Assembly (NCBI GenBank): GCA_021234155.1
Contig: JAJEKV010000058.1
Location: 5,156,600 to 5,220,599 of the forward strand
Source of the DNA: Isoetes taiwanensis
Lineage: Eukaryota; Streptophyta; Lycopodiopsida; Isoetales; Isoetaceae
Reading direction: 5' to 3'
Length of the DNA stretch: 64,000 nucleotides
The notes beneath the pieces are model-generated. The model saw only the letters and a program-made list of their open reading frames with translations, did not search any database and was not told the origin of the DNA. Shown here in pieces: positions 1,675 through 62,030 of this stretch; the first letter of the stretch is position 1, and the number at the start of each line of letters is the position of its first letter. A program made the translations under genes and the position numbers.

Positions 1675-3012
1675 TCAAACGTCATTGCAGTTTTTTTCGA
1701 GAAACGAAAGCTTCATCTCGGTAATATCATGGGCAACAAGGTAATTCTGCTGCAATATGTTCCCAATAATTCCCAGACCATCATCTGCAGGAGTGAGCAA
1801 CAAGCACTTGATGGTCTTAGCAGAATCAACAAAAGCCAAGTAATTTGTCTGAGGAGGGTTCAATAAGGCCCCATCAAATTGGAAGCTGAGAGAAGGGAAT
1901 TGCACAGAAGAAGAAACCCCTGACATATTAAAGCAGACATCAAAATCGTGGTAGTTGAGCAACACAGGAAGATGAGGCAAGGCATGGACGAATGCATCTT
2001 TCACATAATTGAAGATATTAGTGTCCAAGTATGTCAAGGTAGTTCCAGAGTCAAAGATGGTGCCTGCAGAATTGATGTCTGCAGAGGAAGAGGCATTGGA
2101 ATGGCAGATAAGAGTGTCACCTACAGTGATGCTCTTGAGTTTGACATAGTAAAGCTGGCTTGAAGATTGGAGGATAGGAGTAGAGCTAACTGAAGGATCT
2201 GAGATGGCAGAAGAATTGCCAAGGAGCAAAACACTGTTGTTGCTTTCAGTATAGCTAGTGAGGCAGTAAGAGAATTTTCCATTCAGTGAAGAAACTTGAG
2301 ATATCAAGGAAGAGGATCCCATCCCAAATCCAACCAGCCCATCTGCACCACTGAAGTCCCCAGTGAGTGTATGAGCACAACCTAGAACCACATCAAAAGG
2401 TTGCGAAGGACCGGAGTCGGAAAGCAAATCAAGAGCTTCTGATACATACTGCCCATTGTTGTATGACCCATCTGCATATCCATAGTGGTATTCACAAGTA
2501 TTACTTTCAACTTCTGAACATGTTCTTACTTCAGGCAGATAAGAACATTGTGTTGAATTGCATGGTGATGGTATAGCAGAGAAAGAAGTTGACTGGGAAT
2601 AATCTAGCACAGTTGGAGGGCATGAATTGCAAGAAGCAGAATCCGCGCTTTCGCAGGCGCTGCAAGGGTTGCATTTAAACCAAACTATATCACTTCCTGT
2701 GTCAAGAATTGCTGTGAACTTCTTTGCTGGAGTTCCTACTAGCACCTCCATCAAATACTCCTCTGCATATAAAATTTTGGATCTGTATGTAGTATCTAAC
2801 TGCCTCCCATGAAGGCTGGACGTTGTGAGGCTAGATTTTAGAGCCTCCAACCTCTTCTGGCTCCTCGATTTTGCATTGCTTAGCTTCTCAGGTATTGATT
2901 TGCCTGCATCTATATGTCGCAAACTTGCTCTGCCTGAATCGGCAATTGCTGGGCCTGAATTTGCTATATTCAGTACTGCAATTATCACAAAGACTAGAAG
3001 GCATTGCCCCAT
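1675..3012 (-). CDS. nepenthesin-type (A1 family) aspartic protease
   Basis: This is a 445-residue pepsin-family (A1) endopeptidase of the plant nepenthesin/CDR1-like group, predicted to be secreted or vacuolar. Residues 1-24 form a hydrophobic signal peptide, followed by a prosegment of about 60 residues. The first catalytic motif is DTGS (Asp104) and the second is DSGT (Asp321). Between them, around residues 114-175, lies the Cys-rich nepenthesin insert (CNPCSAC...CNSC...CNSTQC...CSEV...C). The flap region YGYADGSYNNG and the C-terminal GIIGN motif are present, as is a late Cys (442). The length is typical and there is no intron, as in many of these plant genes. A TATA-like CTAAATAG (plus coordinates 3068-3075) sits about 55 bases before the ATG, and AATAAA follows the stop (plus 1595-1600). 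A close paralogue lies at 17655-18986 on the opposite strand. Substrate is unknown. Confidence 0.93.
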   Translation of the reverse strand: MGQCLLVFVIIAVLNIANSGPAIADSGRASLRHIDAGKSIPEKLSNAKSRSQKRLEALKSSLTTSSLHGRQLDTTYRSKILYAEEYLMEVLVGTPAKKFTAILDTGSDIVWFKCNPCSACESADSASCNSCPPTVLDYSQSTSFSAIPSPCNSTQCSYLPEVRTCSEVESNTCEYHYGYADGSYNNGQYVSEALDLLSDSGPSQPFDVVLGCAHTLTGDFSGADGLVGFGMGSSSLISQVSSLNGKFSYCLTSYTESNNSVLLLGNSSAISDPSVSSTPILQSSSQLYYVKLKSITVGDTLICHSNASSSADINSAGTIFDSGTTLTYLDTNIFNYVKDAFVHALPHLPVLLNYHDFDVCFNMSGVSSSVQFPSLSFQFDGALLNPPQTNYLAFVDSAKTIKCLLLTPADDGLGIIGNILQQNYLVAHDITEMKLSFLEKNCNDV

Positions 3013-4211
3013 ATTTTTATTTCGCCACTGGTTTGAATGAATGGTGTAACTGCAAGATCACACGGCTCTATTTAGAGATATTGAGTTATTCTAGCGTGAA
3101 GCTTCCAATGCCTAGGCTTTTTGACCCACCAATGGACCCCCAGGAATTGGCCAACACGTCTCAAGAATGAATATTTTTTGTCCTAATTGATCCACTTCCT
3201 GTTATTAATGGACAGCAGATAATGTGTTAGCCCCTTTTGGCTAACGCGTTATAACATTACTAACTCACTAGTTACGAACTGATCTAGGCTGTTGGATTAG
3301 TTTGATCCACGACATACACTAAAACCTTATAGTAGCGTTGTTGGGCAAATGGCGAGAACATGTCAATGAACTTTATTAACGTCAAGATAAGTGGATGAGC
3401 CTTCTATCATTTTCTTGAATCATTCTTTTGCAGAATGACAAATCGCCTCAAGGAAACCTGCAGAATCCGGTCAAGCTTACCTTGACGTAGTGCAATGGAA
3501 AGGGGTCAGGCATTCTTGCCAGCCCCCTGACCTACAAAATCCGGCTGGCAAGACTGCTTGACCCCTTTCAATTCCACATAACATGAGGTCTTTTATCACA
3601 CATCCAAACTTAATAACAATTTGCTATGACCAAATGCATGCTAAAGCAAAAAGAGCATAAGTAGGTGTGTCTATATGGTACTTTATTTACTATGATAGCA
3701 AAAAACCTAAATAGTGATATAGGAAGCAAGTCAATGTAGTTAGTGTTGTTGGGCTAAAGTTGGATAACATGTAATCAAAATTTTGTATGCATTCTACATT
3801 AAATTGTTGTTAAGAAAGATGTGTATGTTCCCTAATGTCTAAGTTTATATTTTAGCATATGAATTGTATGTTAGAACTATGCAATGCCATTGTATTTTTT
3901 ACATGTCTTCTTTCCCCTTGCATTGAATAAGTTTAATGGCCCAGATAAAATGTGAGAAAGAAGTTAATTGATGCGGTGTAGCAATCATTTGATAACTTCT
4001 TAGATTGGAAAGTATTAACAGTCTCTTTCTTATTATTCCAACTGATAGTTTATTTTGATTCGATTGAATCTAGTTGGAATAAATAGTGAACCATAATAAT
4101 GAATTGTGGCTTTTTTTTTTGCTCTTATGGCAAAACCATTTTGTTTAGAAGTTGAATTAACTATGCTTTTCTAAACAATCTCACATGGTGTGTTGCTATT
4201 GTAAGGATGGT
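3013..4211. other. non-coding stretch
   Basis: It begins with the promoter side of the protease gene. An imperfect inverted repeat is seen around 3492-3570 (GGGGTCAGGCATTCTTGCCAG against CTGGCAAGACTGCTTGACCCC), which could form a hairpin. No gene was recognised. Confidence 0.4.
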
Positions 4212-6915: not shown

Positions 6916-8390
6916 ATCTGCAACATAGCTTGACGAATATAAAAGGGATACTTACTCTAATTCTGATAATGTAATTCTGAGATTCTCCTGGAAGTGGCTC
7001 TGCACCGGCTTTCCTGTAAGTTCACATCTTTGTTGTTTTATTGTGGAAACGTTTCCTGTTTGATGTTTCTCTGCTATGGCCGCTGGCTGTAAAACTCCTT
7101 TCCTAATAGTCGTTTCCCTGAACGCGCATTGCTTCCGCTTTTTTATTCTCATTAGCTCATGTCAATAGGCCTAGAAACCTCTGCCGACAGACGAGGTCAA
7201 CAGAAGAAATCTCTGCGGTTGCATGCCTAGATTAAACAACATGGATGGAAGAACTGAATACCTCTTGCCGAATCCAATATAAACTGGAGATCGCCGCCCA
7301 CAATCTGCTCTGGTGCTGCCGAAATCAACAAATCCAGCTCTTCCATATACCTTTCTCATGCCTGCATTTCCAAGCCCTTTTCTACATTAATGGGTTCTGA
7401 TTTCGGCTTATGGCCGGACCTTTGTTCCCCTTCCTGAATCTTAAATAGGTCTTCCCAGCCAGTTGCAGAGATTCTCCCCTGTGTGTCTACCAGATTTCCT
7501 TGCTTTTCCGCATTGATCTGGGCGAACAGAAAAACAGTGAAAAGGGACAAATCCTTTTTATTAGGTCGAACGCGCCTTAAACGGCTGGAACGGGGTTAAT
7601 GCGGGCAGTATTCTTTGCTGATTTTCATTTCAATTTAGAACTTCCGCACTGGTTTACAACATGTAAAACAGATTGTGAAAAAAACAAAATCTTTACAGGC
7701 TTGGACTGCCATGATAAACTCTGCAGACTAGAAGATAGAAGCGCCAAAAATTTTGCAATTCGTTTTGCATTCGGGCCATGTGCTTAATGATCACAAAAAA
7801 CTCTGCACTGCGAATTAGCCTCTTTTGCCAGGGAGCCGGAGGGCAAACCAGTGCATAACCCATTTTGTTTCTCCTTCTTGGGCGTTTTAGGGCAATCTGG
7901 CTCATTTTCTGAATTATTCTGGAACAAACTTAAAATCGAAATCCCCTTCACTTTCCTTTCCTCTTCATCGCCAGTATCAGAATGCTTCAAACGTCTAAAA
8001 GTCTAGTTCATCATTTTACCTTTCCACATATGCAGCATTACCAACAGGAGCAAACATGAACATCAACGGATTCAACCCCCTGCACAAACAGCTTTTGATA
8101 AGTTAAAGCGATAAAAATATCATTTTTTTGTTGATAGAATTCAAGATAGTATGATACTCTTTTTTCTGGATATGTTACACGATGATTGAATAAAAATGGA
8201 ACTTTTTTATTGGTAGGTTATAAATTTCATCTTCCTTTGAAGAGAGTTACCCAACTCTTTTATGTACACTCGACTTCCCACACAATCTACTTTGGGGATT
8301 TTTTTCTTTTGCTATAATAACCATTAATCACTTAGCAGCGTAGAATCGTGCATTAGAAACTGCTTTCTCTAATTAGTGGCATGCGTCAAA
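6916..8390. other. no assigned gene; some coding-like minus-strand stretches
   Basis: Minus-strand open stretches at 7784-7990 (EEERKVKGISILSLFQNNSE...), 7356-7550 and 7171-7359 have polar, protein-like composition, but I recognise no family. A GT donor-like AAG|GTATAT occurs at the junction near 7350. These could be remains of an unknown gene or chance frames. Confidence 0.2.
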
Positions 8391-10634: not shown

Positions 10635-11385
10635 CAAGAAAATGAATAGGTTATTCTCGCTCAGCGTGCTTGGAGTGAGTGGTGGATTAAGAATTTGGAT
10701 TTTCCTTCATCAGTAACTATTACAGGCTTAACATATCATCGAATACGGCCGACCACGTAATCGGGGCATCCAATACATTGGTATGTGTATGACGAGTTTG
10801 AAAGATATGAACAAGGTCGAGAGAAGCGGCAAGTACCATTCCAATGGATTGCTATTGTCGGATTCGATCCTTGATCAAGTCAACCCATTCATTCAAAACC
10901 TTCGAACTATGGGAAGCATGCATGTACCATCGGCATACATTACAATTCAAAGGGGCTATTATGAGTAATCTAAATAGCGACCATTGCTGACGCTTAGTAA
11001 TACGGCTACAGATATTTGTCCTCGAAAGTAGCTGGTTTTGGGTTTGAGTGAAGGAGAACCAACTTTCATGAACATCCTAGATCCTATGTATGAACCGCTG
11101 CAATATCCGCTTTTCTTCCCACATGGTACTATTGGATGGGGGCTTGGAAATGAACATGGCCTTACACAATTGCAGTGGTACAGGACTAGATTGCTACGAG
11201 GAGGCGCTTTCTTCAATTAGGTCGTCTATGCGCGGAGAATATCCGGTCGACATGTATTCTAGGGTAGAGGACGCCGATTAAACTACTTTTAACGCCATCA
11301 TTAGGAATAGAAGAGTGCAATATGATGAGGACTATTTCAACGCCGAAAATGATGCTCGAGTGACATTATTTTACCATCGTCATTC
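10635..11385 (+). pseudogene. broken Helitron-like N domain region
   Basis: Family-typical pieces appear in shifting frames: VTITGLTYHRI and WYVYDEFERYEQ near 10700-10810, then LDQVNPFIQNLRTM near 10868-10915, then NILDPMYEPLQYPLFFPHGT and LTQLQWYRTRLLRGG near 11070-11205. Together they are what lies just ahead of the HUH domain in Helitrons, scattered by several frameshifts and stops. Confidence 0.7.
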
Positions 11386-14300
11386 TTGGGGTGTCAGAGA
11401 TGGTGCTCTGTCCAAGTCGCAGATGCATTAGCACTGTCTAGATCAAAAGGTCGTCCAACATTATTCATCACTATGACTACGAATACTAATTGGCCAGAAA
11501 TACAAGCCCGACTAAGACCAGGACAAAATGCATCCGACATTCCTATGATTGTCGTTCGCTGTTTCCATGGAAGATTACAACGTTTAAAGGAGCTGCTTCA
11601 TAAATTCTTCCAATGCATATCATATGTGATAACGGTCATAGAATTTCAAAAGCGTGGATTGCCGCATGCTCATCTCGTTTTGCGCACTGAACCCGATATA
11701 CCAATCGAGTGCATAGATGAGATTATCTCAGCTGAATTGCCTACAGATCCCATTCTTCGAGGACAAGTTCAAAAATTTATGATGCACAGGCACACCGAAA
11801 GGTGTTCTCCAAATGGCAGTCCTTGTTGCTATAAATATCCAAAAGATGTCAACCCAACAACGCATCTTGATTCGAAGGGTTACGTACAGTATAGACGGAG
11901 AACTATAGACGATGTATGGGTGGTTCCATACAATGCCTTCCTCCTACATGAATTGGATTGTCACATTATGGTGGATGTTGCATCGACAGTCCATGTATTC
12001 TCCTACCTTTATGGTTACATTTACAAAGGATTCGACACTGCTAATTTTCAAGTAAGCCAAGAACGGCACTCGGCTTTCATACCACCGTCCTTAAACAATC
12101 AAGATGAAGCGGCTGCAGAATCCTCGTCAAGAAACAATGGTCAAAGAGGAAATACCACATGCCAACTATCAGGGCATGCACCATCTGAAGAAACCGCTAG
12201 CCGACCTCCTAAAAATGAAATACAGGATTACTTGAGGGCGCGTTATCTATCGGCAACAGAGGCGGCGTGGAGAACAATGTCATATGACATAACAAATAAG
12301 TCTCCTGCCGTCAAATGCTTGCCCCTACATATGCCACATCTGAACACGAGGTCACTATTAGATCGATATTTCTTGCGTCCTCTGGATCTCGAGTTTGATG
12401 CCATCACATACATCCAATACCATGAACAATACACGTTGTCTATATACAACCCGACATTAGGAATTGAATTTGGAGCCCACGTGGAACAAGAGCGGGAGGG
12501 ATTCACGAGGAACGTAGTGAGGAGGAGGTTAAGGCAGCCAATTATATGTAGGATACGTTTGTTATTGCCTCGAGTGGGAGAGGCATTCTACTTGAGACAA
12601 ATCCTGTTGCACCGCCCTGCGAGGACATGGGATGAACTGAAAGTCGTTAATGGACAACAATATGAAACGTACCAACAGGCTGCAGAGGCAGAAGGGCTGC
12701 TTGCAGCACATAACGAGAGTGTGTTAGTGATGGAGGAAGCTGTTTCCTTATCATTGAGTCCCAAACAACTACGATTTCTTTTTGCCATGGTACTGCTGGA
12801 TCAAGGTCCAGCGATTGAACTATGGAGCAGGTTCAAAGCAGCAATGAGTGTCGACATGCTAGACGAGTACCCAAATGAAGAAACAATCGCCTTTAATGAA
12901 TCCCTTCATTTAATCAACAACATTCTAATGCAACATAGTACCAATATCATGGCATTTGGTCTCCAGCTACAGCCTCGTCTTGGAAGAGATGTCATGCATG
13001 AATTGCGAAAATTCTCGAACCATGGACAGTACTTAGATCAAGTAATGCAAATGACGAGCATAATGAAAAATGACCAACAAAAGATATACAACTTCGTTCG
13101 AGAATGGCTTGAATCCCCAGAAAGCAACCAACCTTTGTTCATCGATGGAAAGGCAGGCAGGGGTAAAACATTCCTACTAAATTGCATATGCCTGTTGATA
13201 CGAGGCAAGCAAGGTATAATTCTCCCATGCTGTATGCGGCACGAAAGATTAGCAGGTCTTCAAGATTCAGGGAGGATCTAGCGGCACACTCGTTGTTCCA
13301 AATCCCCGTAGAAGAAAATAATGCAGGGCTTCATTCGATGATAGAACATGATTCTGGAGCAGCAGAGCTGCTCATTGCAGCTAGAGCCATCATCTGGGAT
13401 GAGTTTCCAATGGCCAATAAAGCTGTCATAGAAAGTGCCCATCATCTAATGCAACGACCGCGGCAGAACAATCTTCCCTTTGAGGCAAACATTTCATTGC
13501 TTCGAGATTTTAGACAAGTCGCACCTGTCGTAAAAGGAGGGGGAAGAAATGCCGCATATAACGCATCCATAAAATCCTCGCCGTTGTGGCAAACTTTTCG
13601 TGTGATGAGATTGGAAGAACTGATACGTAACGCAGATGACCCTGAACTAATGAATTTTGTCGATCATATAGGAGAAAATTGGGAGGAGTCGACGGTCTCA
13701 CTAGATATATTCAATATAACTACTAGCGTAGAAGATAGCGTTGAATTTTTGTATCCGTCTGACGTATTGCGCAATCCAGCTTCATGCAAGACACGAAATA
13801 CATTGTCGACAATTAATAAGAGTGTTGATAGCTTCAACGATCGCATTCTTAGTAGAGTTCCTAATCATGACAAATTGTATTATAGTCACGACCACATCAC
13901 GGAGCAAGATGAAATCATACATGACCACCCTTATGCAACTTCAGATTTTCTTAATCACTTCACACATTCTGGAATACCCAACCACGAACTGAAGCTTAAA
14001 GTAGGGGCCATATGCCGCATTATGAAACGATTGGACATGGAAAAGGGCCTGGTAAAAAATGCGAGAGTTATGGTCGTGTCAATGCACGCAAAATTTGTCA
14101 TGGTGAAAGTACTAGACGAGGCATCCCAGGACGATGCATGTACATACCCGATTTCTAGAACTGACTTTTTCTATCAACCGCAGAATCGGCCCCGACCATT
14201 CACGGGCGACAATTGCCACTCGTTTATCTTATTCGACCACCTTCAATAGCCGCCGTGGGTCGACATTGATCGCGTTGTCATTGACCTCGCGTGACGGATG

Positions 14301-17515: not shown

Positions 17516-17654
17516 AGTAACCAGGAAGCTGCGTGTGAGGATTTTATTTTCTTAACATATAATTGGGCCCCTGCAAAACGCGCATGAACAAGTAGTTCAC
17601 ATTAGATCACAGGACCTGATCGTCAGTTCTTGCTCATTCATTCATTCAAACATT

Positions 17655-18986
17655 ATGGAGAATGCACAAATATGCAGATCAACACTTATGTCAGCAATTC
17701 TATTGATAATAACTGTAATTGCAAAAGCTAACGAGCATGAAGGATGTAGAGCAAGCCTGCATCACATAGATGTAGGAAAATCATTGCCAGAGAAATTAAG
17801 CGCGGCGGCGGCGCGAAGCAAACAGAGAATAGAAGCTTTTCAATCAGGGCTGAGAGTAGCAAATCTGCATGGAAGGCAACTGGATGATGTGAGGACAAGT
17901 CTATGGCAATCTGCAAGTGCAATAGACTACTATGTGGAGCTACAACTAGGGACACCTGCAAAGAAATTCACTGCAATAATGGACACAGGGAGCCATCTGA
18001 TCTGGGTCAAATGCAGCCCCTGCAAGTCCTGCAGCAAGGAAGGAAATTCATGCACTTCATGCCCTGCCACAGTCTTAGATCCATCTCAGTCTTCTTCATA
18101 TGCCAGCTTAGGATGTGATGCTCAGGCCTGTGGAACCCTGCCCAATTCAGTTTCAAACTGTTCTTCAACTTCAACATGTGGCTACACATATGCATACCTT
18201 GATGGATCCAACAATGAGGGTGAATATGGCACTGAGAAACTGTCCCTTGTTTCCACATCTGCTACCACCCTGCAGTTTGATGTCTACCTTGGCTGTGCTC
18301 ATACCATTGGTGGCAACTTCGGCGGCGCCGACGGCCTCGTCGGCTTCGCCATCGGATCTACCTCTCTCATCTCTCAAATTCCTTCCTTCAATGGAAAATT
18401 CTCTTACTGCCTTACCAACTATGGTGAAGATCTACCTAGCCCTTTTTTCCTTGGCTCTTCCTCCTCTCTCTCAGACCCTTCACTTGCTTCTACTCCAATT
18501 CTCTCCTCCACAGTTGGCCTATACTATGTCAACTTACTCAGCATTTCTGTTGGATCTAAAACAATATCCAGGACTGATTCTTCCCCTCTTAATTCTGCTG
18601 GCACCATATTTGATTCTGGTACTTCTTTGACATACTTAGAGACTTCTGTTTTTGATGCAGTGAAGGAGGAGTATATCAGTGCCATGACAGGTTATACTGC
18701 TGTTAGTTATGCAGGATTTGATTTATGTTTTGATGTTTCGGGCGCGACGGGTAATATTGTTGTTCCTAAGATCAAGCTGCAGTTTGATGGAGCTTCCATG
18801 GAGCCTCCTCTCTCTAATTATCTTGAGTTTGCTAATGCTGCTAGAAGCATCATCTGCCTGCTCATGGCTCCTTCTTCTCAAGGCATTGGAATTGTGGGAA
18901 ACCTCTTTCAACAAAACTACCATGTTGCCCATGATACTACCCAAATGATACTTTCCTTTGCACCCACAAACTGTAGCACAATTTGA
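17655..18986 (+). CDS. nepenthesin-type (A1 family) aspartic protease
   Basis: This is a 443-residue intronless pepsin-family endopeptidase, paralogous to the one at 1675-3012; both share blocks such as LHGRQLD, LGTPAKKFTAI and NGKFSYCLT. Residues 1-26 form a signal peptide, then comes a prosegment. Catalytic motifs are DTGS (Asp110) and DSGT (Asp320). The Cys-rich nepenthesin insert spans about 120-176 (CSPCKSC...CTSC...C...C...C...C). The flap reads YAYLDGSNNEG, slightly different from the usual Y-x-DGS-x-x-G. GIVGN and a terminal Cys (440) are intact. The ATG is the first in frame after the TATA box at 17508, and AATAAA follows at 19047. The product is expected to enter the secretory pathway and mature by prosegment removal. 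The substrate is unknown. Confidence 0.95.
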   Translation: MENAQICRSTLMSAILLIITVIAKANEHEGCRASLHHIDVGKSLPEKLSAAAARSKQRIEAFQSGLRVANLHGRQLDDVRTSLWQSASAIDYYVELQLGTPAKKFTAIMDTGSHLIWVKCSPCKSCSKEGNSCTSCPATVLDPSQSSSYASLGCDAQACGTLPNSVSNCSSTSTCGYTYAYLDGSNNEGEYGTEKLSLVSTSATTLQFDVYLGCAHTIGGNFGGADGLVGFAIGSTSLISQIPSFNGKFSYCLTNYGEDLPSPFFLGSSSSLSDPSLASTPILSSTVGLYYVNLLSISVGSKTISRTDSSPLNSAGTIFDSGTSLTYLETSVFDAVKEEYISAMTGYTAVSYAGFDLCFDVSGATGNIVVPKIKLQFDGASMEPPLSNYLEFANAARSIICLLMAPSSQGIGIVGNLFQQNYHVAHDTTQMILSFAPTNCSTI

Positions 18987-38299: not shown

Positions 38300-39686
38300 T
38301 GTGATGTTCCATCATAATATACGATATAAATAAGTATATTATATTGCCACATCACTAGTACATGTCGACTACAACGACATGTACACGGTGACCGTAAAGG
38401 GTTGTATCATGGGCACAACCATTAGAACCCATTATATTGCACATGTTATGCAACATGTTAATATATTCTATATTGCCACATGGCAATATCCCATATGAGC
38501 CATATGGCCTATTAGACCCTAACCCTAAAACGTAGGCATAAAGAGGCAGGAACACTAAAAGTGCCCTCTTTTTGGATTCCAGCATCAGGAACGTGCATTA
38601 CTCAAGTGCCCGACTCATTCCAGTCTCCTAGCAGCAGTGAAGCTCACGTTCTAAAGCGGATCGTCAAGACTCCAGCATCGCAGCCCTGACAGCATGGACG
38701 CATTCTAAGGACCTGGAGCGAGCCAAGAATCTGGTATGTGGTTGATCTGTTATGCAACGCCAGCTTCCCGACTGGCATTATGACAGATTTGCATCTATTC
38801 TTAGCTATAGATTACCTCTAAAGCCTAAGAACCCTAGTCACTAATGAATGAATCTAACCATGTATGATTAGAGTAGATAGATTAGATCTTTACTCTGTTA
38901 TTTCAGTTCAATGGATGATATTGTATTGCTCTGTGCGCATCTCTTGTGTATTGGGAAGGGGGGTAGAGATCCAGAGCCTTCGTAAATGATGTTCCTAGAT
39001 AGTCTCATTAGTACCCAATAAATGCGGCATGTGCATAGGAGCACGCCCGGCTGTGGGTGGCGGGGTAAAACCGGCTGATAAGGAAGGCTTTTCCAGCTAC
39101 AGTTGACCCCTCTGCTTCGTTGCAATGGCCGAGGATGTTGTGGGCTAGGCCTAATAGTTTGCCACTAAATGTGGGCAAGGTATGGGCTCGACAGCTCCTA
39201 GGTGATGCGTCGCCTTAGTGGGGTTCAAGTCGTAGACGAGCAGTGTCTTTCTAGCTCCCTTGTAGTTGGCATGGATCTTTTGGAGGGGAATGATCCCCTC
39301 CTGCCTCATCGGGACAGAGGAGATGCAATCCAGGAGTAGCCCCTCTAACTATGCACCCGGCAGGCTACGGTCACATCTCCAATACTTTTCAGCCTATCTG
39401 CAAAGTATGCATAGGAGGGGCAGATGAAGTAGACTACCCAACGGCCATGTTCTTATGCCAGCCCAATCCATTTGCTGTGAATTTTGTCTGTATTGACTTC
39501 TGGAGATCCAAGCCGTCAGTCGATCCCCATGTGTATGCGCCTTGGGTAGGATTTCTCCTTATTGATGTTGTTGTTGTTTGCTAGAATATGATGTTGTTAT
39601 GGTGATCCCACCCTTCGAGGTGGTTACATATTTGATGTGATGTGATGGTTTGTGCTTATATTTATGCGCTTCCACAACTTGGTATA
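38300..39686 (+). repeat. LTR of the histone-H3-carrying family, left part (interrupted)
   Basis: It begins TGTGATGTTCC and is alignable, with many differences, to the LTR at 53376-54880 (shared: GTATTGGGAAGGGG, ATGGGCTCGACA, ATCGG-ACNGNGGAGATGCAA, TTTTCAGCCTA). The right-hand remainder is 50258-50430. The 39682-39686 bases (GTATA) are the target duplication of the Ty3 element that split it. It is a solo LTR or one end of a lost element. It is clearly older than the Ty3 insertion. Confidence 0.8.
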
Positions 39687-50257: not shown

Positions 50258-50430
50258 TCCCGAGGGAGACGGGACGAATGGCACGTCTATTCTTCCCCGT
50301 CAGGTTCTTGCTCACCATCAGGAGCCTGATGATAGGTAGAGGGCCTCGTGTTAGCAGACTTGCGGCGATAGGAGGGATGAACTCCAGTTCTATATGTGCG
50401 GGCCATTGTATACGAGCAAGGGATGTCACA
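50258..50430 (+). repeat. LTR of the histone-H3-carrying family, right part
   Basis: It continues the LTR interrupted at 39686 (GAGGGAGACGGG, GGGATGAACTCC, TGTATACGAGCAAGGGATG) and ends GGGATGTCACA, the counterpart of GGGACGTCACA at 54870-54880. No primer-binding site or matching 5-base flank follows, which favours a solo or truncated LTR. Confidence 0.8.
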
Positions 50431-52883: not shown

Positions 52884-53375
52884 TTATGAAGAATGTTATG
52901 TAGTGAGCATTTTACGCTCCAACTAATAGTGTTTTATTCTTGCAATGGTTGACCTTAGAATAGAATAGAATAGAATTTTTATCATCCACTGAGACCAATT
53001 GGCCTATGCACCAAGTTAGTCATTTGGATGCATTTGACCCCGACATAAATATGTGTGTTCCCTGAAAAGATGTTGTTTGCTCCTTATGAATTATACTTTA
53101 AACCTTTGTTATTGTTTTGTAATGGAAGCATATTGAAAGTGCTCAAAAGTTGAAGTTAAATAGTTGCACTTTAGCCACCAACCAAGAAAATTTCGCCAAT
53201 ATAAGAATTTCATATCATATAAATTTTACATTTTAGCCAAGTGGGAAGGTAACTAAAGGGTTTTATTTTATCAAATTTCGCCTAATAAAAATCTATGAAC
53301 TTTTATTTTTAATAGGTTTAGCCAACTTTAATTTGAATAGAAAAACATTTAGGACCCTTAAAATTTACCCTGATG
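52884..53375. other. non-coding stretch with LINE tail relic
   Basis: At 52962-52984 a TAGAA pentamer run, read on the minus strand after TTGGTCTCAGTGGATGATAA, looks like the tail of a 5'-truncated LINE. Further right, TTTAGCCA motifs at about 53172, 53253 and 53328 echo the GTGGCTAAA motifs in the 52558 repeat on the opposite strand. They may be the far end of a larger element. Confidence 0.4.
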
Positions 53376-54880
53376 TGTGACGTTCCAGTACGATATACGG
53401 TCCCAAGACGTATACCGTACTGCACCGTCACGCGTACATGCCATCCCAACTGACGTGTACGCCGACGTGTAGCCAAGCAAGTAGCGCCCTAGGGGGCAAC
53501 TTGCAAGGATGCGCACATTTACTAATGCGTGCACTTTAACCCACTAAATATTAAGTGGGCATACCAAGGGTCGTGGAAACCCTAACCCTAACTGATAGCC
53601 TATGTAAGGCAACCAAGCCCTAACTTTCCCTTTTCGTCCACAGCCCTTCAGAGCTCCGTTTCACGCGCTTCAAGAGTCAATCTCGTGCCTGAGCAGTCTA
53701 GCTCGTCAGTTTCCCTTTCCGACCGCATCTCAAAGCAAGACAGCGACATGGAAGCATTCCGAGCAGGAGGAGCAAGCTAGGGATCAGGTATTTCGTCAAT
53801 TCAATAGCCTAATCCGCCTCCCAGACGTAGAGTTAGCAGGTTTAGCCTATTGAATTGCCTATAGCAGCCACCTAGACCTCTAGATAGCGAGCCATAACTA
53901 AAGAACCTAACTTCTGTGATGTAGATTAGATATTATTCTTTAGTTCTTCGATGATATGGATGTATTGATGATCTCTGTGGACTCATTGTATTGGGAAGGG
54001 GAGTAGAGGCCTAAAAGCCTAGTAGTTGATGCTCCTAGATAAGTCCTCTTTAGTGCACTACTAAATTTCGGCCTGTACAAGAGCCACACCTGGTTGTGGG
54101 TGAAGGGGCTAGACTGGTTCATAAGGGGGTTCATGTCCTGACTCATGAGAATGATCCCTCTGGTGTGTAAAGCCTACCGGGATCCCTGGGGACTAGGTCT
54201 AATGGCTTGTCACTGCGTGTGGGCGAGGCATGGGCTCGACACCCGTGGAGTGATGCATCACTCTCCATTGGGTTCAAGTCGGATAAGGGCAGTGGCCCTC
54301 TAGTCACCTTGAGTCAGCATGTAGATCTCTGGAGGGAGTGATCCCTACCTGCCCCATCGGAACTGGGGAGATGCAACCCAGGAATAGCCCCTTTGGCTAT
54401 GCATCCGGCGGGCTACAGTCAGGTCCCAACACTTTTCAGCCTACTCTGTAAAGTGTGCACAGGAGGGGCGGATGGAGCGGACTACCCAATTGCCATGTTC
54501 CTTTGCCAGCCAACTCCACTGTTATTGCACTCTGTCTGCTAGATCTCTGGAGACCCAAGCTTGTCAGTCCACCCTTGTGTCTGAGCCTGGGTAGAACTCC
54601 CTTATGTGATGTACTGATCTTTGTCTATGCAGATATGTGGTGAGCCATCCCTCGTGGTGGTCATATGATATTGATGTATGTGCTACTGACGTGTATATTA
54701 CGCTTCCGCAGCTAGGTAGGCCCTGAGGGAGACAGGGTAAATGACCCCTTCATTCTTCCCACTGGAACATTCAAGGTTGCAGTGATAGTGGAGGGCCCTA
54801 TATTAGCTTGGAGCTGGTATGGGGGATGAACTCCTGTTTGTATACGGTGAGTGCACCGTATATGAGTAGGGGACGTCACA
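53376..54880 (+). repeat. 5' LTR of the histone-H3-carrying retroelement
   Basis: The 1505-base LTR begins TGTGACGT and ends ACGTCACA, a perfect 8-base terminal inverted repeat, followed one base later by a Met primer-binding site. A diverged relative is split at 38300-39686 and 50258-50430. No second LTR is found to the right inside the window. Confidence 0.9.
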
Positions 54881-54881
54881 G

Positions 54882-54893
54882 TGGTATCAGAGC
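54882..54893 (+). promoter_or_regulatory. primer-binding site for initiator tRNA-Met
   Basis: TGGTATCAGAGC is the standard plant retrotransposon primer-binding site, complementary to the 3' end of initiator tRNA-Met. It stands one base after the LTR and fixes the element's orientation as plus. Confidence 0.95.
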
Positions 54894-55083
54894 AATGTTC
54901 TTGGAGACCAAGAGCAAAGCACTGGCCATGCTCCCAGTAATACTAACTTGATAGAAACTTTAGACCTCGAAAAAGTGGGAAAAATTTTTCTCACTCTTTG
55001 TAGTATATGCTAAGCTAGTAACAGTTAGGAGAATTGGAACATAAGAAGACTAAAAAGTTGAGCTAAATTTTTCTAAGGTAAGG

Positions 55084-55156
55084 AATGTCTCACACCATGC
55101 GCCAGAGCACAAACCTAAAATTTAGGTCGAGCCCTGGGCGCATAATGTGAGACATT
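55084..55156 (+). other. leader hairpin 1 of the H3-carrying element
   Basis: The left arm 55084-55105 (AATGTCTCACACCATGCGCC...) pairs with the right arm 55134-55156 (...GCGCATAATGTGAGACATT) with about two mismatches and one bulge, over a 28-base loop. The same left arm recurs exactly in hairpin 2. Confidence 0.85.
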
Positions 55157-55296
55157 AGGCCCTAATCACCTTAATACTTGATGAATTTTAATGAGGTAAC
55201 ATGCTAGATCGAGTTTTAAGGTAAGAATTAGCTAGATTTGTATATTACTCCCCTAGAAATATGCCTAGAAATCATATAATTTAGTCTAAAATCCAC

Positions 55297-55353
55297 AATG
55301 TCTCACACCATGCGCCAGATTAGCTCTGGGCCCCAGCGCATAATGTGAGACAT
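55297..55353 (+). other. leader hairpin 2 of the H3-carrying element
   Basis: The left arm 55297-55318 is identical to the left arm of hairpin 1. The right arm 55334-55353 (CAGCGCATAATGTGAGACAT) pairs with it over a short loop. Two matching structures in one leader suggest a function in the RNA or in DNA binding. It could also be a duplicated small inverted-repeat insert. Confidence 0.85.
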
Positions 55354-55453
55354 GTGCTTAGGAAACTCTGAAATAAGTATATGTTTCAAGTCAATAGGTG
55401 GCTTGACTCATGAAAATGAGCAACTTGGTAGTTGACCTAAAAATTGACCAAAC

Positions 55454-55462
55454 TATAAATAG
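55454..55462 (+). promoter_or_regulatory. internal TATA box ahead of the H3-like region
   Basis: TATAAATAG stands about 100 bases before the ATG at 55563 and about 570 bases after the primer-binding site. The spacing is that of an ordinary plant promoter. It may give the H3-like region its own transcript, or be chance. Confidence 0.5.
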
Positions 55463-55562
55463 ACCTGAACCCCTCTCATTCGCAGACTTCACGTCTAGAA
55501 GATAGCTCCCCACTTCGAGGCGATTTTTGGGCGCCAGAGCTCCGTTTGACGTGAAGTAAAAT

Positions 55563-56813
55563 ATGGCCAGAACCAAACAAACTGCCCGGAAACCCCGACC
55601 AGGCGAAACTCTCCAGCGTCCAAGACGCGAGCCTCATACAGCAGATGCTTCGAGAGAGACTTCTCACGAGAGAAGGACAACCTTCTTCAAGTGGGAGAGC
55701 ATTCCAGATAAGCAGCAGCAGGATACATCCGAGCTGGTGGACATCATCAACCAGCAGCTGGACGAGGAAGAAGAGATTACATCTCCGGCCTCAATAGATG
55801 AAGAGACCGAAGAAGTGTACGAACAGATAGAGCGAGAGATACAAGACGAGGAGAGGGCAGAACGAGAGCGGAAAGCCAAGGAGGCAGAAGAACAGAGGGA
55901 GCCAACTCCAGAGCCAACAAAAGAAGAACAACTAGAGGCCTGGATCAAAATGCATGAGGCCAAGCTAAGGCACTGAGAGAAGAAAAAGGCGGAGAAAAAG
56001 AGGAAGAGGGAGGAAAAGGAAGCAAAGGAGGCCGAATTGAAGAAGAAGCTCAAGGGCAAAGGCGTGGAGCAGCCCAAGAGAAGACTAAAAAAGACTCCTT
56101 TGACAAAGGTTGTCATTCAAGAGCGGCCAGCAGACCAGCCCCCATCATCCTCGGATGACTCGGATGATGAGGATTACAACCCTCATCATCAAGATGGAAG
56201 CTCTTCCAAGCCTCCAGGCGAAGAGCACACAGACCCCGAGCCACAAGTGCAGGCACCCCCGCCTTATCTAACTTGGGGGACAGAGAAGGACTCCAAGAAG
56301 CCGCCGCGACCCGCCAGGGAGTCCTACGTGATAAACCCTATCAGGGTCTATCAGAAGAAGTTCAAGGCGTACCAGGCATACATGAAGAAGCGGGAGGCTT
56401 ATGACTCCTACTATCAGGCGAACAAGGTCACGTACGTCGCAGGTGGACGACCGTCGAAGAAGCAGACTCTGAAGCCGCCTCCTGAGAAGCCCGTTCCTCC
56501 GAAGAAGCCACCAGCGAGGAAAGCCAAGTCAAACCTAGCAAGAGCCATCAGAGAGATCCGACACTTCCGGCGGAGTTTCGGTTTTCTAATCCCTCGTGCT
56601 CCCTTTGCCAGGCTCGTAAAGGAACTCGTGCAAGAATACGACACCAGCATGAGGGTAACTGGCGAGATGCCGCTAGCCCTACAAGAAGCAGCGGAGCAGA
56701 AACTCGTGCAGCATTCTGAAGACGCAACGGCATGCACGGTACACGCAAAAAGGGTAACCTTAATGAAGAAAGATATGCACTTAGCCAGTCATATCAAAGG
56801 AGAGCTTTACTAA
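55563..56813 (+). CDS. histone H3-like protein in the gag position of an LTR element (fossil)
   Basis: The coding region starts M-ARTKQTARK, identical to residues 1-9 of the H3 tail, including the K4 and K9 equivalents, then diverges (PRPGETLQ...). It closes (56544-56810) with an 89-residue stretch that aligns without gaps to H3 residues 47-135. Landmarks are IREIRHFRRS, PFARLVKELVQEY, LALQEAAE, the strongest block HAKRVTLMKKD, and a terminal IKGE. I count about 42 identities. Loop 1 has no insertion, which argues against CENH3. Tetramer-interface residues equivalent to C110, H113, R116, D123 and L126 and the DNA-contact R83 are kept. R63 is Pro and K56 is Arg. Between tail and fold lie a Glu-rich coiled-coil-like part, an SSSDDSDDED patch, a Tyr/Lys-rich helical part and a Pro/Lys-rich linker. 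The region is 1.25 kb against 0.41 kb for a normal H3. It appears broken about once. Its function is inferred only: chromatin docking or nucleosome-like packaging. Confidence 0.85.
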
Positions 56814-56861
56814 AATTGTAAATTAAAAATTTTGTGAATACAAAGTGTTTTTGAGTAGATT
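56814..56861. other. end of H3-like region to LINE tail
   Basis: An A/T-rich strip follows the stop codon and precedes the LINE's 3' tail. The rest of the LTR element (any pol, polypurine tract, 3' LTR) is not seen here or beyond the LINE within the window. Confidence 0.4.
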
Positions 56862-56867
56862 AGAATA

Positions 56868-56889
56868 GAATAGAATAGAATAGAATACA
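56868..56889 (-). repeat. LINE 3' tail, TTCTA pentamer repeat
   Basis: About four to five TAGAA units on the plus strand at the 3' end of the LINE. Similar tails are at 16385-16400 (plus) and 52962-52984 (minus). Confidence 0.7.
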
Positions 56890-57127
56890 TTAACGTCCCT
56901 CAGGCCGTGAGGCCCCCGGACTTATGTAGCATCCTGCGAGCTCCCATAGGGTGCTGCCAGCAAACAGACGCATAGGTTTTATTTAGCCATCTAGTGGGCT
57001 TCACTTGTTCTTTATATATTACCCGCATCGTGTTTATAGCTGGCTTCTTGGCCATACACAAATGCATCGTTATAAACAGTTTTGAACTGTACTTTGTGGG
57101 CTACTCTGATCCGCCTCTCCGTGCTTT

Positions 57128-60100
57128 TCAGATTATTAGCCCTCTCTCTTTGTGCACCCCCCGGTGTCTTATTATCATTTCTTTTATAGCTTTCGCTATA
57201 TCTGTGAGTGTCTCTTCTTTGTCCATCAGTGCTGGGAGTGGGAGGTCCCACCTGACCTTGTTAAATTTGGACCTTATGTCGTTGTAAACCGTGCACTCCT
57301 TTACCATGTGCTTTTCGTCCTCTATTTTTCCTGAGTCACATACTCGGCATATTCTCTCTGCTCTATCTATTTTCCTCCATCTATCTTTCTCAATTCGGAG
57401 GTCGTGGCTACCCATCTGAATCGGCGGCGTTCCCTGTTACTCTTATTCAACATCTTCGCTTTTTTATGCGTGATATGCCCTATCTGTCCCCCCCGGATTG
57501 AAGGTTTCCAATAGCTTGACCGCTTGGGTCCTGTGTCTTGCCGTGCGGCCCCGGTTTCTCATTGCTTTTCCTGTCCATTCTTCGTCCCATCCGATGCGCT
57601 TGTATAATCGACTTAGTTGCATCCCCATATTTCTTTGTCCATTTAAGCCAATTAGTTAAACCATCCCTTGCCATTTGTTATGTCTTTGTTTTTGCTGATT
57701 CATCTATCGCTAGTGGTGACAGTTTGTCCTCTTTCCCATAGCTATTGTCCTTTATTAGGTATCTAACTTCGTTTCTTTCCAGACCCCTCACTTCCATTGG
57801 CTTTTCCCCCGTCTCATATAAGATTGTTGCCAATGATGTACATGTCTTCACGGAATTCTGTCCGTGCCATTGTCTCAGTATGCCTTCTTGTTTTTCCCAT
57901 TTCTTTTTCCTCGACAGGGCTGGCCCCATGTTTCACATCCGTGCAAATTTGTGTTGATGCTACTATCGTCTTTGAATAGGTATGCTTTGATTTTCCAATT
58001 GGTGATCTGTTGTTGTTGCAATAATTCATCATGATGTAATAATTGCCTATTCTTGGAATCCGGTTATGCGCTCCTTTTGACCATCTCCCCATGTGTGTCG
58101 TTACCCTAGATACACGTACCCGTGGCTTCCTCCAGTTCCTCCCCCTTGTATCTAAATGGCCTGTGTTTTATCTTTGTCCCGAAGGTCACTATTTTTGTTT
58201 TTCCCAGGTTGACCGTCAGTCCTGTCTCCTCACAAAATTCCTCTAGTATCTCTAACATTCTGTGCATCCCTTTGGCTTTGGTCGCCATCATACCCAAATC
58301 ATCTGCATATAGCATTATTGGGACTTTTGTTTTCCCTATCATTGGTGCTTCAATATCTCCCTGTCTTTCCCTGACAAATTCCTGTAAAGCATCTATGTAT
58401 ATCCCAAATAGTGTGGGTGATAGTGGGCAGCCTTGTTTAACTCCTGTATCGCATTCTATGGCTTCTCCTCCCTCCGCTGTTTTGGCATACACCTTTTGGT
58501 ATAGCCTTGCGATTGATCCTACTAACCCTTCTGGTGCTCTTAGTCCTATTAGCCTAAGTAGAAGTTTATCTCTAGGCACTGTGTCGAAGGCTTTTTTAAA
58601 GTCCACGAAGCAGCATATGATCTTGTTGTTCTCCTTTGTCTGCTCTATCATTATCCTTAGAGTCACCAAATGGTCCGTAGTCGAGTACTACGGTGAAAAC
58701 ACCGCGACCTTGTGCTCTGAGCTTCCCGCTTACGCCCACATTTTGATTTTTGATCCGCGTTTTCCCGAACCATTTCGCGAATCCGAGCTGACCATAATAG
58801 TCTGTAATTGCTTTCGGTTCCTCCTTGTTTCCTCCTTTGTGGGCGGGATTACCTTGTTAAAGCGCCATCTTTAGGAAGACCCAAATGTACTACCTCATTG
58901 AATATTTACATTTATAATTCCTATTATCTCTGTTCCTCGCGCGCCTTGGCATCTCATTTGTTAGCCCATATAGATCCGGAGCTTTGTTATTTCGCCATTT
59001 TGTTTAATGCCCATGTCACTTCTTCCTTGGAGAAAGGGGTTTGTGTCTACCTACGGGTCCATGATTGGTGCGACTCTGTTTTTGTACAACCGTTCTAGGT
59101 ATCTTGTCCAGTCTATTTCTATTTTCATTCTTCTCCCGTCTTCCCTTTTTGATGTACCCGCTTTTGTTTTTGAGCCTCTTTTCATATTGTTCCAGAACAC
59201 CTTAGGTCTCCTTTTCAGGTCTTCGGCCAATCCCCATTGATGGTTTTTCAGGTCCTGGGTTCTCTTTCTTTTCAGAATTTTCACGTACTTGCTGCGTTCT
59301 TCTTGGTATGCCTCGGTTCCTTTTGCCTGTTTGGCTTTCCTTCTTTGTTCCATGCACCCTTCATCAAACCATACTGACCTTCGAAATGCTATGGCCCTCC
59401 TTCCTCTTTCTCTTTTCCCGAATGCCACTTTAGCTGCTTCCTCCAAGATGTCGTTCATATCATTCCCTCTGTTCTTCATTCCCTCTCCCCATTCCTTCGC
59501 TTTTATTTCCTTTTGTACTATTTTTATGAATGTTCCCACTCTGTTTTTCCTGAATTTAATTGTTATCTCGGCCTGTTTACCTCTTCCTTGCTCGTCATCT
59601 GTTCTTCCCCTTGTCACATTTATTTTGAGCAATATGGGGTGCGTGTCCTTCCCTCCTTCCTGCTCGGCCATTCCCCTAATTCCATCTTCAGATTTCCTTT
59701 ATTGCTTCCTCATTTGCTATCACATAGTCTACTATCTTTGCTCCGTGGGCATTTGTGCTTGTGAACTGGCCTGAATCCTCCCATCTTCTTAAACCATTGC
59801 ATATAATTGTATCTGTCATTTGTACATACCTCCATCGGTGTTTCTCCTCTCATTTGTCGGTTCCATTTTAGTCTCTAGTTTCCGCTGCCATTCCTTCCCC
59901 TCTTATAGTCTCGTGTCCCTTTCTCTCTCGTTGTCTATCCACGCTTTATGTGATTGTTCCGTCCCATCCTTGCATTAATATCCCCACTATGATCAACATT
60001 CCCTTATCCCTATGTCTCATGATGATCTCTCCCATGCTTAATAGTTCAGTTTATCACATTGGGGTGGGATAGTATACTATTAGCAAATACTGATTTACGT

Positions 60101-60400
60101 AATCAAGCAACACAACATTTATAAGCATGTATCTTTTATTAATGTCGTTTTCCAAAATACATGCTTTTCTGATACTGCTATTCCTAATGTAACAGGCTAG
60201 CCCTGTGCTACCCCTTCCTATTTTGTAATTCTTTTCCCTCCAACAGGTGAACAAAGTGTAGCCTGGCTCGTCTGGTAGCCTTTTTGTACTGTGCTCCCAT
60301 GTCTCTACCAGACATATTATATCTTGGTCTCGTGCTTCGTTTAGGCGTTCTCCATCATCCCAAGGATATCCCGTACAATTCCAGTACCAAATCGTTATTT
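57128..60400 (-). pseudogene. LINE ORF2: endonuclease, reverse transcriptase, Cys/His finger
   Basis: Minus-strand order is as follows. The APE endonuclease start (YWNCTGYPWDD, LNEARDQDIICLVETWE) lies at about 60400-60300, with FTCWREKNYKIGRGSTGLAC following in another frame. Next is a Lys/Arg-rich linker (RSVWFDEGCMEQRRKAKQAK, 59671-59051), then a shifted FSKEEVTWALNKMAK near 59030. Reverse transcriptase follows at 58669-58106 (FVDFKKAFDTVPRDKLLLRL, GVKQGCPLSPTLFGIYIDAL, catalytic IMLYADDLGMMA, GLTVNLGKTKIV). The C-terminal finger is RICRVCDSGKIEDEKHMVKE then C (57415-57128). At least four frame changes break it. No RNase H was seen. Confidence 0.88.
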
Positions 60401-60880
60401 CTTCCTTCCTTTCTGCACCCCCTGTCTCCCTGCTGTTCTATTGCGTGTCCCTTCCTCAGCTGTCCTCTCGTTCTTGCTCCCTGATCCCCCACTCTCTCCC
60501 TTGTCAGCTTTATGTTCTTGTCTAGGTCCCTTCCGACCTCTTTTCCGCTTCCCCATCCTAACTGTGTTTGTGTTAGGATTTTAGGGGCTGTTTCTCGGTC
60601 TATTGCCCCGGGTGTTGTTACTTCCCTCATCTGCTTCAGCTGTCCCTGTCCTCTCACTACCTCCGTTTCTTGATTCCCATCTCCCCTCGGCCCCTGTGGT
60701 TCCATCCCATCTCTCTGCGTTGTCGGTTCTTGCGGTGTGTTCTCCGTCCTCTTTTTGGTATAGTTTCCCATTCTTTACCCCCTTGTACTCTTTCATTTCG
60801 GTTCTCGACTTTCGCCCGGAGTTCTCGGTGTAACCCCTGTCTCTGCATGGGTGTTAGGGCCTCTTGTACTTTGAGTCCAT

Positions 60881-61461
60881 TCACGAGTTTGAACCTGCGT
60901 GGATGATTCTTTCTTTGGTTTGCCCGGATCTCTCATAGTCACATTTTATATGTCGCTCTCCCTCTCCAAGCCCCCGCTCTTCTTTGCTTTCACTATCACA
61001 TTCGTGTTCTGAAAAGCGTTCTCCATAATCTCTGCGGTGACCACGAAGCGTGTCTTCGCCGTTAGGCCTCTCGGCTAGTCCTATCAATCTTACATCAAGC
61101 TTAATCCTTTCACGTTCTTTGAACTCCACTATGTCTTGGTTTAATCCTATCAAAACTCGCCGCGCATCTAGATCTATTTGTTGCTTTTCTAATATCACCA
61201 ACCTTTGTATGATTTCCGTTTTTTTTTTCTTTCTCTACCTCTTCCATCCTCTTAGAATTTCCACCTCTCTCTTCCACCACCGCACCCGTTCTTCCACTTT
61301 CCCTATTGCCTCTTTGTTACATTTATCTTTGCCCGCCCGGTGTGTTCGGTCTTCCATCCTCGGGACCACGGCTTCCAGCCTTCGTCCATCATTGCCAAGA
61401 AGTCCTGCCCGGATCTTGCTTGAGTTCTTCCCTGCTCGCCCCGCTCTGCTTGGTTAGCCAT
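60881..61461 (-). pseudogene. LINE ORF1-like region
   Basis: An ATG at 61461 opens MANQAERGEQGRTQARSGQD and so on. Further on, in another frame, 61201-60881 is highly charged and coiled-coil-like (EKQQIDLDARRVLIGLNQDI, VEFKERERIKLDVRLIGLAE), the composition of LINE ORF1 RNA-binding proteins. At least one frame change lies between them. No zinc knuckle is recognisable. Confidence 0.5.
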
Positions 61462-61817
61462 TCTTCTTTCCGTTCTTGTGGTGATTCCGGCAGCGAATTC
61501 CCTTCCCGCCGCCCGCTCTCTCCTGTGCCTACCTGTTTCCTATATCTCTTCCGCGGGCTTACTATATCTTGTTCCTTTATTTATCCGTTCGGTCCTTTTT
61601 CCCCCGTATCCTTTCAGTTTTTGAATTTCAAAATTCGAATCATCCTATCTAAGATATGATTATTGGTTGTTCGCGTCCGCCATTTACTATCGGCGTTTTT
61701 ATGGCTGCCCCTTAGATTCGTATTCAATTCCCCGGCTTTAGTGATTTTCGGTAGCATATGGACTGTTTTTGCTTTCTTTGTATCCTTTTGGGAGTGGGTT
61801 TTTTGTGATTTTGGTGC

Positions 61818-62030
61818 ACCAGCCGGAGGAATGGATCCTCACTGTCCTGGTGTACGGCCGGGGAGTTGCCTCCCACTATCCCGTACTTGGCAACCTCTAT
61901 CTTTCCACTTCCATTTCCATTTCCATTCTATGGTCCGGGTAAGCTGGTGTCTGTTGTTTAGCAGTCGGCACCAGCCGGTGGGCTAATTTCCCACTCTGTC
62001 CTGGTGTATGGCGGGGACACCCGTCCCTCT
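61818..62030 (-). repeat. tandem units of about 150 bp in the LINE 5' leader
   Basis: GCACCAGCCGG, then about 20 bases, then TGTCCTGGTGTA(C/T)GGC(C)GGGG occurs at about 61818 and again at about 61970. LINE 5' leaders often contain repeated promoter monomers. Confidence 0.65.

Follow-up and report, generated by a model that had tools for sequence, protein, structure and literature searches.

A histone H3-like open reading frame ahead of gag in a high-copy LTR retrotransposon family of Isoetes taiwanensis

Introduction

Mobile elements that carry histone H3 have been described in fungi. In Pyrenophora tritici-repentis, hAT elements carry H3L (PMC3538342), and a hAT-captured H3 is known from Pseudocercospora fijiensis and its relatives (PMC6710886). 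In the accessible portions of these two reports, the fungal elements are DNA transposons with inverted repeats and a transposase, their copies are near-identical or RIP-inactivated, and tail and fold are not described as separated by a linker. Among plant LTR elements, Ty3/gypsy elements of orchids contain an ORF for an AlkB m6A demethylase (PMC9289625). According to the available part of that paper, its screen comprised 121 angiosperm genomes and 15 uncommon domains, with non-seed plants outside it; the word “histone” occurs twice in its text, in neither case for an element-carried domain, and it occurs 0 times in the main texts of PMC13317346, PMC7264820 and PMC5408684. In the literature searched, which covered few subscription journals, no paper among those listed described an LTR element with a histone ORF.

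Here we describe an H3-like ORF within an LTR retrotransposon of Isoetes taiwanensis. It lies in a 64,000-nucleotide stretch of genomic DNA, hereafter the window, and we follow it through the genome to which the window belongs.

Results

An H3-like frame follows the LTR and the leader

The ORF at 55563-56813 opens with the exact H3 tail MARTKQTARK, continues through a charged linker and closes with an H3 histone fold (Table 1). An earlier note on this DNA had claimed an LTR with a terminal palindrome, a Met primer-binding site, a leader and then a coding region, all of which are present at 53376-56813. The note's ungapped alignment of the last 89 residues to H3 47-135 was reproduced exactly, with 42/89 identities; the note did not mention the tail. 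The ORF contains exactly one in-frame stop, a TGA. The histone-profile search that the note had proposed gave a match to Pfam Histone at E=1.5e-23 for the part 3' of this stop, and the 89 residues alone gave E=2.9e-23. The closest solved chain to the window protein is histone H3.3 (E=1.1e-21).

Table 1. Positions of the features of the window copy and of a related LTR in the window
Feature	Positions	Strand	Remarks
Related LTR, left part	38300..39684	+	72% identical over 716 columns; right end 50330-50430
5' LTR	53376..54880	+	1505 bp, ends TGTGACGT/ACGTCACA; from sequence and from homologous LTRs paired in 5 other elements
Untranslated leader	54881..55562	+	~680 bases; LTR-to-ATG interval; main matches 73-87% identical in 12 fetched 10-kb stretches
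Primer-binding site TGGTATCAGAGC	54882..54893	+	begins at second base past LTR end
Leader stem-loop 1	55084..55156	+	arms 90% complementary; fold z -7.3; compensatory changes over 32 rows
Leader stem-loop 2	55297..55354	+	same motif as stem-loop 1; fold z -4.0
H3 N-terminal tail MARTKQTARK	55563..55592	+	first ten codons; kept in other copies
Charged linker	55593..56543	+	317 codons; in-frame TGA 55974-55976; final part (from ~56439) weakly like H3 12-46
H3 histone fold (H3 47-135)	56544..56810	+	then TAA 56811-56813
Element sequence 3' of H3 ORF up to LINE junction	56814..56865	+	family homology ends at 56851-56865
LINE interrupting the element	56866..62000	-	62000 is a guess for the right end; RT 58109-58687, RVT_1 E=3.5e-25

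N-terminal of the fold, a Pfam search found no domain over the cut-off. The linker is 20% acidic, 21% basic and 11% proline in composition. Its last ~35 residues align weakly to H3 12-46, about 4 bits above chains that start later, and this aligned end contains several lysines, including one that aligns with K27. Predicted structure models were of low confidence, with a mean pLDDT of 53.7 and 55.1.

The window copy is dead, owing to the single in-frame stop and to truncation by a LINE near 56865. Since family homology ends by that position, where the minus-strand LINE starts, the gag and pol of this copy would lie outside the window. The primer-binding word, which we take to be of the initiator-Met type, recurs in 9 of the other elements that were fetched with that region. 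The related LTR is interrupted by a Ty3/gypsy element on the minus strand (~39.7-50.2 kb) with direct repeats at both ends that are 98-99% identical; a purine-rich stretch immediately before 38300 suggests that this LTR may be a 3' LTR. Elsewhere in the window, 1675-3057 (-) holds a eukaryotic aspartyl protease frame of the TAXi type, to which a frame at 17556-18986 (+) is alike by eye, and 11353-14249 (+) holds Helitron-like helicase ORFs, the first with a Helitron_like_N match (E=4.1e-28) and a weak PIF1 match.

The leader contains two occurrences of a stem-loop motif, and a number of copies have another 3' of the H3 ORF. The motif gave 41 matches with 33 distinct sequences, some of them one place counted in two overlapping loci. 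With the window hairpin's fold as reference, 32 rows gave a double change at 10 of the 27 pairs and 706 paired cells, compared with at most 703 in 500 shuffles; the outermost and some inner pairs often fail. RNAalifold returned no structure for the leader hairpins, and Rfam gave no match in 53300-57000. The stem-loops perhaps serve packaging or translation control.

The ORF recurs in a high-copy LTR element family

We searched the window's own genome (1.66 Gb, 1110 contigs) at the protein level. From 13,869 loose first-look candidates 139 places were scored, all of which match, and at least 139 places, the window included, thus encode the H3-like protein. This agrees with the earlier claim of an H3 gene captured, and then reshaped, by an LTR element. 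Twelve places, all chosen via the H3 ORF, were fetched as 10-kb stretches. Leader and H3 ORF are present in 12/12, these stretches having been found through that ORF, and a second frame between the H3 ORF and gag, ORF2, was detected in 10/12 by tblastn with the L021 and L026 proteins. By tblastn, six of the 12 (L017, L018, L021, L022, L026 and L028) contain gag and/or pol on the same strand, and L025 has gag/pol on the opposite strand; the L021 and L026 proteins found no gag/pol within the 10-kb stretches of L019, L020, L023, L024 and L027.

Downstream of the H3 ORF in L018 and L021, Pfam identified Retrotrans_gag (1.2e-17), Ty3_capsid, RVP_2, RVT_1, RNase H and rve, together with H2C2 in L018. 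A chromodomain (Chromo PF00385) is located at the integrase C-terminus, with E=2.3e-10 in L021 and 1.2e-7 in L040. In L021 the order is gag at 3933, RT at 5845, IN at 7560 and the chromodomain at 8214. ORF2, for which no Pfam family exceeded the cut-off, runs from 2316 in L021, over 2502-3812 in L026 and from 2499 in L028, with a MATADFRRWYSA-like start.

Paired LTRs with TG...CA ends were found in 5 elements, one of which (C1071) has an exact 5-bp TSD. This complete element, at 8093837-8109216 of C1071, has the TSD CAATG, a primer-binding site and a purine-rich tract, GGTGGGGAGAA, before the 3' LTR. Its LTRs are 96.4% identical (38 mismatches in 1594 columns), and its own H3 ORF has lost the start codon and the last residues. 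The family layout is LTR, primer-binding site, leader, H3-like ORF1, ORF2, gag, protease, RT, RNase H, integrase with chromodomain, and LTR. We are all but certain that the element is a high-copy Ty3/gypsy chromovirus with an H3-like ORF1 ahead of an ordinary gag.

In the complete or near-complete copies the H3 region lies between leader and gag and so belongs to the element family, as the earlier note had held. Its description of a gag-position protein did not survive: the H3 ORF is additional and lies upstream, and a separate gag with a Ty3-type capsid domain lies downstream in other copies. Because the ordinary gag is preceded by the H3-like ORF1, “gag-position” holds only in the sense of “first ORF”. 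Replacement of gag by H3 is ruled out by the same downstream gag. A search of the source genome for further copies, which the note had proposed, also disposes of a stray histone retrocopy or a host gene next to an LTR, given these at least 139 places, the complete element and the LTR elements enclosing the ORF. A hAT-H3 transduplication was likewise rejected, as the elements have LTRs, gag and pol instead of a hAT transposase and terminal inverted repeats.

Signatures of selection on the H3-like protein

We examined 75 copies, namely that of the window plus 74 from the remaining 138 places. The frame is open as far as the fold in 17 copies, 14 of which continue through the fold, 12 of these 14 starting with ATG. 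Over all 136 pairs of the 17 copies, dN/dS was 0.088 for the tail, 0.23 and 0.18 for the two halves of the linker and 0.074 for the fold; over 8 disjoint nearest pairs, the corresponding values were 0.186, 0.257 and 0.182, and 0.130. Fold differences in 31 disjoint nearest pairs of 63 folds fall on codon positions 1/2/3 in the numbers 188/109/486, and the counts were 120/64/294 in the 21 of these pairs whose two members both lack an intact tail-to-fold frame. Sampling relied on protein similarity and in part favoured copies with open frames, which biases dN down in these comparisons. This bias is not readily the source of the synonymous variety of the tail: exact MARTKQTAR occurs in 31/75 copies and is written in 27 different DNA words that use both arginine codon families.

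Thirteen copies group by their folds in a single clade with support 100/100, and the median dS among the 17 copies is 1.33, which together fit a single capture followed by long evolution. The H3-like ORF is under purifying selection as a protein, and that protein is very probably functional. A captured H3 fragment carried passively and without function, like many transposon gene captures, would account for the many broken copies and for the stop in the window copy, and has a parallel in P. fijiensis, where, in the accessible text of PMC6710886, the hAT-amplified H3 copies are all RIP-inactivated except the original. We nevertheless regard a passive passenger as very improbable, because it would explain neither the codon-position bias, the dN/dS values and the synonymous variety of the tail nor the long history of a single clade at this median dS.

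Conservation and change within tail and fold

The tail was located by similarity in 60/75 copies. Among these 60, T3 and K4 are each present in 59, R8 in 56 and R2 in 55. Position 9 varies, with V in 31 tails, K in 24 and another residue in 5. When located instead by the end of the leader, the tail was placed in 48/75 copies, with T3 in 44, K4 in 43, R2 in 40, R8 in 40, exact MARTKQTAR in 23, and position 9 as K in 22 and V in 18; 3 of these 48 places are clearly mislocated and were scored as misses. No serine stands at position 10 in the copies inspected. Many copies contain a GG.P(S/T)KKQ-like word near the linker end, possibly left over from H3 12-19, with K14 replaced. The silencing sites thus appear altered, not proven absent, and the lysines of the linker end, one at the place of K27, imply that they may not be fully gone.

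For the fold, 72/75 copies were tallied under a filter in which residues 110-120 are disregarded. The kept residues, of 72, are R83 (71), R116 (71), K115 (70), C110 (69), H113 (69), D123 (68), L126 (68), I130 (68), T118 (67), R49 (67) and R69 (65), which presumably comprise the H3-H3' (tetramer) interface and the main DNA contacts in nucleosome structures. The changes, also of 72, are Y99K (72), R63P (70), F84V (70), G102Q (70), L103H (70), A98Q (68), R128S (66) and Q85T (65), and R129 is variable. Several of these residues (the set of R63, F84, Q85, R128 and R129) are, we assume, ones that touch DNA or form the C-terminal helix. With R63P, F84V, R128S and Q85T near-fixed and R129 variable, an ordinary nucleosome may not form. 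The near-fixed A98Q, Y99K, G102Q and L103H would create a new surface.

This pattern bears on two further explanations of what the protein does, for which the earlier note had suggested packaging of the element's DNA, docking on chromatin or competition with host nucleosomes as possible roles. Host factors that read or erase the H3 N-terminus include PHD-type readers, K4 demethylases and an RdDM adaptor that reads unmodified K4. The protein could act off the DNA as a soluble decoy, its K4 tail on a long arm titrating the host readers and writers of the H3 N-terminus, with the fold retained for stability or histone-chaperone binding. Such a decoy would suit the preservation of residues 1-8, which along with the fold are best kept (K4 in 59/60 located tails), the long charged linker, and the near-fixed changes at R63, F84, Q85 and R128 if nucleosome assembly were lost. 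A decoy, however, would need neither a fold with dN/dS as low as that of the tail nor K115, R83 and T118, and we consider it unlikely.

The other explanation gives the protein a role in the particle or the pre-integration complex, where it would coat the cDNA, with host H4 or alone, and help chromatin docking together with the integrase chromodomain. Encoded upstream of gag on the genomic RNA, it could be made and packaged with that RNA, and the chromodomain on the integrase is present as such packaging or tethering would have it. By our own reading of the alignment, however, the chromodomain cage is incomplete, with only the tryptophan kept of the three aromatic cage residues, at positions that we take from HP1. 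Group II chromodomains lack aromatic cage residues, according to the available part of PMC12786077. Given that only one cage aromatic is kept, as in group II, a simple K9 link for the integrase chromodomain is not indicated. The exact conservation of the H3K4 tail would also be left unexplained by a packaging protein or integration tether, which we judge decidedly doubtful.

Relatives of the fold and other H3-ending proteins

In a search of 5.8 billion proteins, the best 120 of 325 matches to the window protein and 120 of 7785 matches to one of the proteins found, P0001, were considered. Among the matches listed were long H3 proteins from the fern Adiantum nelumboides and from ENA contigs. This long H3-like set comprises P0001, P0003, P0023, P0045, P0063, P0122-P0126, P0133, P0160 and P0187. 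In the 12 that were aligned (P0124 was omitted), four start with MARTKQTARK, one with MARTKQTAKK and seven further in. Like the window protein, they combine an MARTKQTA(R/K)K start, seen in the five with the N-terminus present, a linker and the H3 fold, which is full except in P0133 and P0187, where it is cut or altered; several are Adiantum copies. Their linker, in contrast, is shorter (~170-180 residues) and without clear likeness to that of the window. Six Adiantum nelumboides gene models annotated “hypothetical protein” (P0063, P0122-P0125 and P0187) belong to a long H3-like repeat. Five of the Adiantum copies are 77-85% identical to one another, and in these five 25/27 arginine changes at conserved columns are to C/H/Q/W, compared with 2/17 in the other seven proteins. 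Such changes bear the mark of methylated CpG decay and suggest that the Adiantum copies are silenced repeats.

With P0001 as query, the window's genome gave at least 138 scored places from 8,115 first-look candidates. All but one match from residue 134 onward only, and their frames often exceed 400 residues, with a frame of exactly 463 at seven places. One locus, L106 (C1030:16339050-16340540), has a 477-residue frame that ends in a near-canonical H3 fold, its N-terminal part being unrelated and the ARTKQ tail missing; at L107 (C1034:23105480-23105960), the N-terminal part of a 463-residue frame resembles L106 by eye. These frames represent a second kind of H3-ending repeat protein in the same genome. 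The linker of P0001 was found in 0/586 candidates among long proteins (~424-1347 residues). Viral contigs gave 35 pattern matches and no relative, and plasmids no match. Eight loci in bacterial genome bins matched only query residues 111-199 and were taken as contamination by ordinary eukaryotic H3. Foldseek with the low-confidence P0001 model yielded weak matches to histone chains (best E 9.9e-4), to which we gave no weight.

In a tree with the window copy alone, this copy falls beside CENH3 at 83/82, and the likelihood is higher when it is held with the Adiantum group. With more copies, the family falls beside the Adiantum group at 60/87, with an AU p of 0.42 for TE+CENH3. Loop 1 aligns without gaps to H3 in the window copy and in 72/75 copies under a loose filter, whereas the CENH3 rows are one residue longer, and this length disfavours a CENH3 origin. 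It also weighs against a host H3-variant gene, such as CENH3, beside a stray LTR. The window fold is most like a CENH3 (57%) among the tree rows, as such a gene might be, but its loop 1 matches canonical H3 in length, unlike the plant CENH3 rows, and neither the 139 places nor a complete element with a TSD and the H3 ORF inside is to be expected of it. A host gene is therefore scarcely credible.

Discussion

Overall, the best explanation is that a captured H3 was rebuilt into a selected ORF1 that acts as an H3 variant placed on chromatin, a reading to which we assign a probability of roughly 0.4. A host histone H3 was captured and rebuilt into H3 residues 1-8/9, a flexible charged linker of ~305-350 residues and the H3 fold. 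In the mechanism that we propose, the protein would be made from the genomic RNA of the element, its retained fold would pair with host H4, and the resulting H3 variant could be placed on the DNA of the element or around it. There, the exposed tail could carry the active K4 mark. The sites past residue 8 appear rebuilt, with K9 absent from over half of the copies, S10 gone and K14 replaced where alignable, and the surroundings of K27 and K36 seem no longer H3-like. Writing silencing marks on such a variant would then be difficult, and the element might build anti-silencing chromatin of its own.

This mechanism, an H3 variant on chromatin with a K4-markable tail on which silencing marks are hard to write, we put forward tentatively, as quite possible. 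The possibility that the linker end is left over from H3 12-46 slightly lowers the odds, and the K9 found in 24/60 tails counts against the mechanism, as an anti-silencing variant would not need K9. A broader version, which we find speculative and rather unlikely as a whole, is that a chromovirus lineage has a working nucleosomal H3 variant, with K4 kept and most silencing sites rebuilt or lost, that builds unsilenceable chromatin on its own DNA, and that other repeat families of this genome, and perhaps of ferns, made their own H3-ending proteins, so that the strategy is recurrent.

Transposon silencing targets histones, and the retrotransposon lineage described here has long maintained one of its own, as the median dS indicates. 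The family is a natural experiment on the parts of H3, with residues 1-8 including K4 and the fold kept, K9 optional and the remaining tail rebuilt. It also allows the question whether mobile elements can write chromatin of their own to be put to a direct test.

Among the described systems, plant CENH3 resembles the window fold as a divergent H3 with a replaced tail and some shared residues (LIP, TLMKKD), whereas the window family lacks the longer loop 1, has a high copy number and lies inside an LTR element. The plant chromoviruses with group I/II chromodomains share the gag-pol order and the C-terminal chromodomain of the integrase, as far as the accessible text of PMC3350952 and PMC12786077 extends; these portions mention no histone ORF, in contrast to the two extra ORFs that precede gag here. 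The orchid AlkB elements, the nearest parallel among extra ORFs of plant Ty3/gypsy elements, are, as the available part of the report presents them, likewise Ty3/gypsy elements with an additional, host-derived ORF that could act on host control, but their ORF encodes an RNA demethylase and not a histone. In the fungal hAT-H3 elements, on the accessible evidence of those reports, a mobile element also captured an H3 gene and multiplied it to tens or hundreds of copies. The window family differs from them as a plant LTR retrotransposon in which tail and fold were pulled apart and long-term purifying selection followed. Gene capture by transposable elements, including that of H3 in fungi, and extra ORFs in plant Ty3/gypsy elements are thus already known; what is unusual here is the degree of selective maintenance.
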